A stretch of DNA of 53,800 nt from Candidatus Tectomicrobia bacterium (GTDB lineage: Bacteria > UBA8248), in NCBI GenBank assembly GCA_016192135.1, contig JACPUR010000007.1:1-53800 (forward strand), read 5' to 3'. A program made the translations under genes and the position numbers. Below, one piece after another: positions 15,312-17,980 of the stretch (positions are counted from its first letter, which is position 1; each line of letters begins with the position of its first letter). Below the pieces are notes generated by a model. It saw nothing but the letters and a program-made list of their open reading frames with translations, was not told the DNA's origin and did no database searches.

Positions 15312-16100
15312 TTACAGCAGGGTGCCCCTGAGCACCGTCACGGCCTGGCCCCCGAGGAGGACGCGCTCGCCCATCACCGTGACCCGCACCACCCCTCCCC
15401 GCGCCGAGGCCTGGAAGCCGGTCATCTCGGTCTTCTTCAGGCGCTTCCCCCAGAAGGGCCCCAGGCAGCAGTGGGCCGAGCCGGTGACGGGGTCCTCCTC
15501 GATGCCGGAGCCGGGGGCGAAGAAGCGCGAGACGAAGTCGTACTTGGGCCTCTCGGAGCGGCAGGTGACGATCACCCCGCGCACGGGCAGGGCCCGGAGG
15601 AGGGCGTGGTCCGGCGCGAGGGCCCGCAGGGTCTCCTCGGAGTCCACCTCGACCAGGAAGTCGAACCGGCTCCTCCCCACGTACCTCGGCGTGGCGCCCA
15701 GCGCCTCGGCCAGTCCCTCCGGCGGCTGGGCGGGCTCCTCGCGGGTGGCCGGGAAGTCCATCTCGATCCAGTCCCCGGCGCGGCGGCAGGCGAGCGGGCC
15801 GCTCTTCGTGTGGAAGCGGATCTCCTCGGAGGGCTTCTGGAGGCCCTCCTCCCAGAGCACGTGGGCGCTGGCGAGGGTGGCGTGGCCGCACAGGGCGATC
15901 TCGACGGTGGGGGTGAACCAGCGGAGGCCCCAGCCGTCCGGGCGCTTCGCGAGGAAGGCGGTTTCCGAGAGATTCATCTCGCGGGCGACGCGCTGCATCC
16001 ACTCCGGGTCGGCCGGGGCGCCGAGGAGGCAGACGGCGGCCGGGTTCCCCGCGAAGGGGACGGCCGTGAAGGCGTCGACCTGGAGGAGGGGACAGGGCAT
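15312..16100 (-). CDS. PhzF-family isomerase-like protein
   Basis: Protein of 262 residues with the PhzF/diaminopimelate-epimerase-like fold: QVDAFTAVPFAGNPAAVCLL at the N-terminus, the catalytic Glu in NLSETAFL, the ALCGHATLASAHVL segment, and GIEEDPVTGSAHCCLGPFW in the second half. The family includes PhzF of phenazine synthesis, but most members are of unknown function and no phenazine genes are near. It follows the MOSC gene by three bases on the minus strand, so the two are co-transcribed with the selenoprotein gene. Confidence 0.9.
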   Translation of the reverse strand: MPCPLLQVDAFTAVPFAGNPAAVCLLGAPADPEWMQRVAREMNLSETAFLAKRPDGWGLRWFTPTVEIALCGHATLASAHVLWEEGLQKPSEEIRFHTKSGPLACRRAGDWIEMDFPATREEPAQPPEGLAEALGATPRYVGRSRFDFLVEVDSEETLRALAPDHALLRALPVRGVIVTCRSERPKYDFVSRFFAPGSGIEEDPVTGSAHCCLGPFWGKRLKKTEMTGFQASARGGVVRVTVMGERVLLGGQAVTVLRGTLL

Positions 16101-16103
16101 GCG

Positions 16104-16583
16104 TCAGGCCTCTTCCACCGGGTCGCCCCGGCGGATGGTCCCGCCCTCGAGGATCTCGGCGTTCAGGCCCGAGCGATCCTCGAGCGCCGCCTTGAGGCCG
16201 GAAATTCCTATGAGACCCTCGAGGTGGAGGCAGGGCTGGTTGATGCGCACCCCGCGCAGGAGGGCCCCCCCGATGCGGAAGGGCCTGCCCACGAGGCGCC
16301 CGAGGTCCACGCCCCGGGTGACGAGGTTGCGGCGGCTGTGCTCCGGGCGGAGCGCGATGCCGCTGTCGCGGGCCATGGCCTCGAGGGCCTCGGCCGAGAT
16401 CAGGGTGATCTGGCAGCCCGGGTCGGAGGAGGAGTGGGTGCCCGCGCCCTCGGAGTAGCGGTCCCCCCGCAGCCCCCTGCCCACCAGGGCCTCGGCCGCG
16501 AGGACGCCCTCCATGGGCTCCTTGCCGATCGAGGCGAGGAAGATGCCCTCCACCACGCCCTGGGCCGCCGCGTTCCGGGCCAT
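16104..16583 (-). CDS. MOSC-domain protein
   Basis: Stand-alone MOSC domain of 159 residues, related to the C-terminal domain of molybdenum cofactor sulfurase. It shows ALVGRGLRGDRYSEG near residue 32-46, the ITLISAEALEAM strand-helix and a conserved Cys in NQPCLHLEGL. Such proteins are thought to handle a sulfur or metal-sulfur transfer at the cysteine. The ATG at 16583 has AGGAGGA seven bases upstream, and that site overlaps the stop of the selenoprotein gene, so translation is coupled. Operon partners are SelW-like and PhzF-like proteins. Confidence 0.88.
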   Translation of the reverse strand: MARNAAAQGVVEGIFLASIGKEPMEGVLAAEALVGRGLRGDRYSEGAGTHSSSDPGCQITLISAEALEAMARDSGIALRPEHSRRNLVTRGVDLGRLVGRPFRIGGALLRGVRINQPCLHLEGLIGISGLKAALEDRSGLNAEILEGGTIRRGDPVEEA

Positions 16584-16595
16584 CGAATTGTCCTC

Positions 16596-16832
16596 CTAGA
16601 GGTGCTTCCGGATGAGCTTCTCCGCCTCCGACTCGCTCGGGAAGCGGTGGGTCTGGAGCTTCGAGTAGAGGAGCTTGCCCTCGAGGGTGAGCTCGAAGGC
16701 GCCCACGCGAAACTTGCCGCCCTCGTTCCCGGCAATCTCGAGCCGGGGGAACTTCCTCTTCAGCGCTTGAGCCAACTGCTCAAACTGGGGCTGGTAGTTT
16801 CACCTCTGGCAGTACTCGACGTGGAGCTTCAT
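16596..16832 (-). CDS. selW: SelW/Rdx-family selenoprotein with in-frame UGA
   Basis: Small thioredoxin-like redox protein of 78 residues, probably cytoplasmic. The frame opens at ATG 16832 (AGAGGA five bases upstream) and runs MKLHVEYCQR, then TGA at 16802-16800, then NYQPQFEQLAQALKRKF and on to TAG at 16598-16596. The TGA is exactly at the second position of the CxxC/CxxU redox motif (Cys8, Sec11), where SelW proteins carry selenocysteine. Downstream residues FELTLEGKLLYSKL and HRFPSESEA match the SelW C-terminal pattern, so the sequence after the TGA is plainly coding. A SECIS-like hairpin lies 16-33 bases beyond the UGA. Ordinary gene callers would truncate or miss it. It leads the selW-MOSC-phzF run. 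Confidence 0.88.
16761..16787 (-). promoter_or_regulatory. Bacterial SECIS-like element of selW
   Basis: In the mRNA, 17-22 bases after the UGA, UUGAGC pairs with GCUCAA around the 5-base loop AGUUG; outer CAG/CUG pairs extend it past an internal loop. The loop has G in its second position followed by U, and begins 22 bases after the UGA. This fits the loose bacterial SECIS consensus (small apical loop with an early G, about 16-37 bases from UGA), which SelB would recognise. Confidence 0.75.
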
Positions 16833-16909
16833 GCCGGTCCTCTCGCTGTGGAACGGGCGACGCCGCCGGAGCATCCTCGCACCCGGGGCGGAAGGAGGCA
16901 AGGGCGCTC

Positions 16910-17980
16910 CTAATGCCGGTGGCGGTGGTGCAGGTCAGGATAATGGGGATGGCTGTGGACGAGGGGTTCGTGGCGATGCGGGTGGCTGTGCGGCCCCCGG
17001 GGGTCCATGCCGGGCGGATGCCCGTGCTGGTGGTGCGCGTCGTGCTCGTGCCAGTGCTCGTGCTCCATCTCCCCGTGCGCGTGGGGATGTTCGTGGCGCT
17101 CGGTCAAGTGAAGCCATATCCCCCCGCCCATCAGAAGCGCCGCCGCGATGAACGAGGCCGAGAGAGGCTCCCGCAGGAGGAGAAGGGCCACGCCCGAACC
17201 GATGAAAGGGGCCAAGGAGAAATACGCCCCCGTCCTCGCGGTCCCGAGATGGCGCAACCCAAGGACGAAGAGGACGAGGCTCAGCCCATAGCCGAAGAAA
17301 CCCACGATGAGCGCGGAGGCGAGCGTTGTCAGCCCCGGAAGAGATGCGCCACTCCCCCAGGCAAGGCCCCCGTTCACCAATCCGGCCACGAGGCCCTTCA
17401 GGCAGGCGATCTGGACCGGGTCCCCGCCCGAGATACGTCCGGTGAGGTTGTTGTCGATCCCCCACGCAAGGCAGGCGCCCGCGATGGCGAGCGGCCCGGC
17501 CAGCCCGCCCCAGCCGGGCGCACCATCCCAGGAGAGGAGACATCCGCCGGCCACGATGGCCGCCATGCCCAGGGCGATTCGCCGGTCGAAGTTCTCCCGG
17601 AAGGCGAACCACGCCAGAAGCGCCGTGAACACTCCCTCCAGGTTGAGCAGCAGCGAAGCCGCCGAGGCAGGGGTGATGGACAGCCCCGCCATCAAGAGCA
17701 CCGGCCCCGCGATCCCTCCGCTCAGGATGGCGCCCCCGAGCCAGGGCAGGTCCGGCAGGCGCAGAGGGGCTTCTCTCGCCCCGCCCGTGCCGGACCGCAT
17801 GGTCCGGCCGAGCAGGACCATGCCCAGGCCTATTCCCGATCCGAGGTAGAAGAGCCCCGCCAGGAGATGGGGCGAAACGCTTCCCAGCAGGATTTTCGCG
17901 AGGGGAGTGCTCAGGCCGAACAGGAGGGCCGCGCCGACGGCGAAGGAGACTCCCTTCCGTTCAGCGGAAATCATCTCCAA
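16910..17980 (-). CDS. EamA/DMT-family transporter with His-rich C-terminal tail
   Basis: Inner-membrane transporter of 356 residues. Residues about 8-295 hold roughly ten membrane helices in two EamA halves (AVGAALLFGLSTPLAKILLG in the first, GFFGYGLSLVLFVLGLRHLG in the second). The last 61 residues contain 23 histidines (HEHPHAHGEMEHEHWH and so on), a feature of metal-handling proteins. Nickel, cobalt or zinc efflux is therefore more likely than metabolite export, but this is inference. The ATG at 17980 is used; an ATG two codons later is possible. The selenoprotein gene starts 77 bases downstream on the same strand. Confidence 0.87.
   Translation of the reverse strand: MEMISAERKGVSFAVGAALLFGLSTPLAKILLGSVSPHLLAGLFYLGSGIGLGMVLLGRTMRSGTGGAREAPLRLPDLPWLGGAILSGGIAGPVLLMAGLSITPASAASLLLNLEGVFTALLAWFAFRENFDRRIALGMAAIVAGGCLLSWDGAPGWGGLAGPLAIAGACLAWGIDNNLTGRISGGDPVQIACLKGLVAGLVNGGLAWGSGASLPGLTTLASALIVGFFGYGLSLVLFVLGLRHLGTARTGAYFSLAPFIGSGVALLLLREPLSASFIAAALLMGGGIWLHLTERHEHPHAHGEMEHEHWHEHDAHHQHGHPPGMDPRGPHSHPHRHEPLVHSHPHYPDLHHRHRH

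Follow-up and report, generated by a model that had tools for sequence, protein, structure and literature searches.

A probable SelW-like selenoprotein gene with an in-frame UGA codon in a Candidatus Tectomicrobia bacterium

The stretch of DNA analysed here, referred to below as the window, comprises 53,800 nucleotides of a Candidatus Tectomicrobia bacterium (GenBank assembly GCA_016192135.1, contig JACPUR010000007.1, positions 1 to 53,800). A short minus-strand reading frame at 16832-16596 meets a TGA after only ten codons, and the question raised by this locus is whether the TGA ends the frame or is read as selenocysteine (Sec) within a small redox protein. We conclude that the locus is very probably an Rdx-family, SelW-like selenoprotein gene (selW), in which the UGA at codon 11 would be read as selenocysteine through SelB and a downstream hairpin.

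The reading frame and its protein family

The selW frame consists of 78 codons followed by TAG, with the ATG at 16832-16830 and the TAG at 16598-16596, and is preceded by a Shine-Dalgarno-like GCGAGAGGACC (16836-16846, minus strand), recognized by reading of the sequence alone. It encodes MKLHVEYCQR, then the TGA (16802-16800), then NYQPQFEQ and onward, with 67 residues between the TGA and the TAG. When the TGA is read as a residue, the Pfam Rdx profile (PF10262) matches protein residues 3-76 over profile positions 2-74 of 74 with 69.1 bits (cut-off 22.6), and the NCBIfam model TIGR02174, which describes the CXXU proteins SelT, SelW and SelH, gives 76 bits (cut-off 34.2). An alignment to SelW homologues, suggested in the initial annotation as a check, places the TGA on the second Cys or Sec of the CxxC/CxxU motif of Rdx proteins, at which the homologues have either a Sec-type TGA or Cys; the SelW pattern and the position of the TGA that had been claimed for this frame are thus borne out by both the sequence and the Rdx alignment.

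The closest sequence matches among solved structures in the PDB are MIEN1/C17orf37 (2ljk, E 5.7e-12) and mouse SelW (2npb, E 1.8e-7). The predicted fold is SelW-like: an AlphaFold2 model built from 26 aligned homologues (predicted local distance difference test, pLDDT, 94.7; predicted template-modelling score, pTM, 0.82) has SelW-related structures as its top PDB fold matches, with template-modelling (TM) scores of 0.72-0.80, and the C8-x-x-U11 motif lies between strand 1 (E2-7) and helix 1 (H14-27) of this thioredoxin-like model. Sequence comparison and model together confirm the frame as a real gene for a predicted small redox protein of the Rdx/SelW family. Automatic annotation would probably miss it, and its description as overlooked is plausible.

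Conservation of the TGA codon among relatives

Within a phylum sample of 18 genomes, selW is present in 16, and each of these (including all 11 genomes of high quality) has TGA at the redox site; no Cys form was found in any of the 16. The two genomes in which selW was not matched are themselves 67% and 70% complete. A search for relatives outside the phylum gave 24 further Rdx matches, 19 of which contain a TGA, and the 18 of these that were placed in an alignment (A2) all have it at the redox site; in the single Cys-form homologue whose sequence was read throughout (L023), the residue at this site is Cys. The protein is conserved on both sides of the TGA, with C8, G44 and S57 invariant and F46 and P65 nearly so. 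The relatives from the species collection are metagenome-assembled genomes (MAGs) labelled Nitrospinota/Nitrospinae or unclassified, and no report of a SelW in Nitrospinota came out of a search of the literature.

A hairpin resembling a bacterial selenocysteine insertion sequence

A putative bacterial selenocysteine insertion sequence (SECIS) hairpin is located at 16793-16761 on the minus strand. An outer helix of 4 bp (CAGC/GCUG; 16793-16790 with 16764-16761) joins an upper stem of 8 bp (16785-16778 with 16772-16765) across a 4-nt bulge, and the AGUUG loop (16777-16773) begins 22 nt past the UGA. The initial annotation had recognized the loop and its position, as expected of a bacterial SECIS, although it gave the stem as 6 bp. 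The constraints published for bacterial elements are a loop of 3-9 nt, a stem of 4-16 bp, a G in the first two loop positions, a distance of 16-37 nt from the UGA and a minimum free energy of -7.5 kcal/mol or lower (PMC13188914). The hairpin fits them all, with a 5-nt loop, an 8-bp stem, G at the second loop position and a distance of 22 nt, and its upper stem alone folds with -9.7 kcal/mol. With the outer helix included, a stretch of 41 nt reaches -15.2 kcal/mol.

Since Rfam at its gathering thresholds has no match in the window, the hairpin was tested by hand. When the codons were resampled synonymously 5000 times, 0.16% of the resamples had a hairpin at least as stable in a position allowed for a SECIS, and 0.52% reached -7.5 kcal/mol. 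The z-score against shuffled sequences is sensitive to the choice of stretch (41 nt, -3.0; 51 nt, -1.1; 63 nt, -0.4), and since the values for the longer stretches are not significant we relied on conservation and on the synonymous resampling as evidence. Folding energy alone is insufficient proof of the hairpin; it is conservation that supplies it. The 16 phylum genomes do not differ in the innermost 5 bp, and their loop reads AGUUG in 15 cases and AGUUA in one, four of its five bases being invariant. The codons of the hairpin core are correspondingly frozen (GAG, CAG and GCT in all 16, TTG in 15), whereas Glu codons elsewhere in selW vary (13:3, 8:8 and 11:5). Distant homologues have a hairpin at nearly the same place, in which two of the inner 5 bp show compensated changes, a weak support; their loops, unlike the AGUUG found here, are mostly AGUUU, AGUCU or GGUCU.

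Selenocysteine machinery and proposed decoding

The genome encodes SelA (540 bits) and SelB (389 bits, with the SelB winged-helix domains present), whose genes are close together on one contig (C15) with an alpha/beta-hydrolase-like gene in between, and a tRNA-Sec gene (selC; anticodon tca, UCA) is found on another (C28). Thus three of the four genes that the initial annotation had predicted, selA, selB and selC, are present, and these include the two, selB and selC, whose absence it had regarded as decisive; the fourth, selD, has no match above the cut-off in the assembly.

By analogy with the family, SelB loaded with Sec-tRNA(Sec) would bind the hairpin that follows UGA-11 at a short distance, and selenocysteine would then be inserted in place of termination. 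The product would be a 78-residue thioredoxin-like protein with its CxxU redox motif between the first strand and the first helix, and a selenenylsulfide/dithiol-type reaction of this motif with a thiol partner may be expected.

Alternative explanations

Several observations weigh against selenocysteine decoding at this locus. The stem of the hairpin is near-invariant within the family, so that little covariation can be counted (one both-sides change), and because the core is invariant covariation within the family is uninformative. In several relatives of genus g5 the contiguous stem has only 5 bp, and its -5.2 kcal/mol falls short of the published threshold; the lowest-energy folds of these sequences are sometimes other structures. 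In addition, selD is missing from an assembly that is 96.8% complete (in 41 contigs), its best matches being ThiL-like and below the cut-off; the best of these, L011, was rejected as a thiamine gene of the ThiE-ThiL type.

The missing selD raises the possibility that selW persists in a cell that is now unable to make selenocysteine, selD having been truly lost. Such a loss would account for the absence from the assembly of both selD and its surroundings of about 12 kb in the congener; a control region taken from that congener does have a counterpart in this genome, with 80% identity over 3 kb. Matches of the congener selD locus (L072) to this genome are confined to short ones and to ones at the level of repeats, and the remainder of its contig of about 12 kb has none at 1e-20. 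However, because the entire congener contig is absent, and not selD alone, we favour a missing contig as the simplest and likeliest cause of the gap, as an assembly of 41 contigs and 96.8% completeness would allow. The gene scores above the cut-off in 14 of 17 other family genomes, both congeners included, and selA, selB, selC and the SECIS-like core are intact, all of which makes true loss of selD quite unlikely.

The remaining alternatives concern the TGA itself and are less probable still. Were it an error of sequencing or assembly for TGC or TGT, the protein would be an ordinary CxxC member of Rdx, such as the Cys homologues that do exist (L023 for example), and the source is a multi-contig assembly; but the same TGA is present in 15 other phylum genomes, a TGA occurs in 19 further Rdx matches elsewhere, and conservation of the SECIS-like core extends to synonymous sites. 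Were it a nonsense mutation in a pseudogene, as a stop after only ten codons might suggest, the frame beyond it should be decaying, and the ratios of non-synonymous to synonymous substitution (dN/dS) relative to the nearest relatives are indeed not low (0.5-1.0). Relative to more distant relatives, however, they are 0.15-0.23, and the Rdx-specific residues past the TGA are kept across the phylum with no further stop, the TGA being fixed in the lineage. The occurrence of the TGA in each of the 16 phylum genomes that carry selW, and of a TGA in the 19 matches outside, excludes both the sequencing error, which the initial annotation had named as the finding that would overturn it, and the pseudogene, against which it had argued; we regard the probability of either as negligible. 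It is also highly improbable that the UGA is read as Trp or Gly instead of selenocysteine, a reading for which nothing specific speaks. TGA is the ordinary stop of adjacent genes (MOSC, two MFS and ChrB), so that the code is not reassigned genome-wide; moreover, the only in-frame TGA falls on the redox position, and tRNA-Sec, SelA and SelB are all present.

We note some further features of selD in the relatives. All 14 phylum genomes with a selD scoring above the cut-off have an in-frame TGA in that gene (L072, L061-L074), and the neighbours of selD in the congener G002 are ATP-dependent zinc-protease-like genes and one resembling msrA. The genome analysed here (G000) contains a short repeat at about 40 places; it is palindrome-like, both strands often giving a match at one place, and a copy of it lies next to the congener selD (L072:249-324).

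Genomic setting

Two genes follow selW in the same direction. The selW stop is separated by GAGGACAATTCG, a gap of 12 nt, from the ATG of a gene for a MOSC-domain protein (16104-16583, minus strand; Pfam PF03473, 46.6 bits), and next comes a gene for a PhzF-family protein (15312-16100, minus strand; PF02567, 211 bits). The coupling to the next gene proposed in the initial annotation holds insofar as the two are close, although they do not overlap. The order selW-MOSC-PhzF, with MOSC directly downstream of selW, recurs in genera g1, g2 and g5, and genus g2 (L041) has two tandem MOSC-like matches after selW; in most other genera PhzF follows selW without a MOSC match, and in most family loci it lies downstream of selW on the same strand. 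A functional link is conceivable, and the MOSC protein could possibly be a functional partner of SelW. Upstream of selW is a gene for an EamA-family transporter (16910-17980, minus strand; PF00892), which only the congener G002 also has at this place. The transporter has a long His-rich C-terminal tail, HEHPHAHGEMEHEHWHEHDAHHQHGH... (window 16910-17060), the composition of which suggests metal binding.

A relative with UGA at both redox positions

The selW gene of one relative in the phylum, G008 (L105:1524-1745; G008:C35:5123-5341), reads MKMHVEYUQRUNYKPQ, with TGA at both redox positions (UxxU); in its congeners G004, G012 and G014 the first of these positions is Cys, and the reviews consulted give the SelW family only as CxxU. 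The G008 hairpin is the one with the AGUUA loop, and tRNA-Sec is encoded twice in this genome, by genes of equal score on separate contigs. It is somewhat doubtful that the UxxU motif is real; if it is, the protein would be a diselenide SelW, and the alternative is a single-base error of TGC to TGA in this one MAG.

Relation to known SelW proteins

Eukaryotic SelW uses a SECIS in the 3' untranslated region, and the SECIS of Escherichia coli fdhF has a GGUCU loop. Several of the distant SelW hairpins share a loop of this formate dehydrogenase type, in contrast to the AGUUG of the window. Mammalian SelW (2npb) and MIEN1 (2ljk) are the best matches of solved structure, and the fold predicted here is that of SelW; MIEN1 has Cys at the Sec site. 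The protein resembles bacterial SelW-like proteins of the Rdx family in its length, its N-terminal CxxU, its match to the Rdx profile over the whole protein and the position of its SECIS just downstream of the UGA; it differs from the other aligned bacterial members in a 5-residue insertion before the conserved GAFE (window residues about 38-42, alignment A3), which is common to the SelW of the phylum. SelW-like CxxU selenoproteins of bacteria have been described computationally since 2005-2008, marine metagenomes included (PMC1088965, PMC1794560, PMC2398784), and are among the most widespread of marine selenoproteins (PMC2398784, PMC1794560, PMC13188914).

Both the family and the decoding mechanism are therefore already well known in bacteria, and the understanding of neither is changed by this locus; what is new is a member in a little-studied phylum. 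The gene offers a clean case of a short frame that would be reduced to ten codons by ordinary gene calling. For this phylum, which is small and uncultured and has named relatives labelled Nitrospinota, it represents a SelW fixed in the Sec form.
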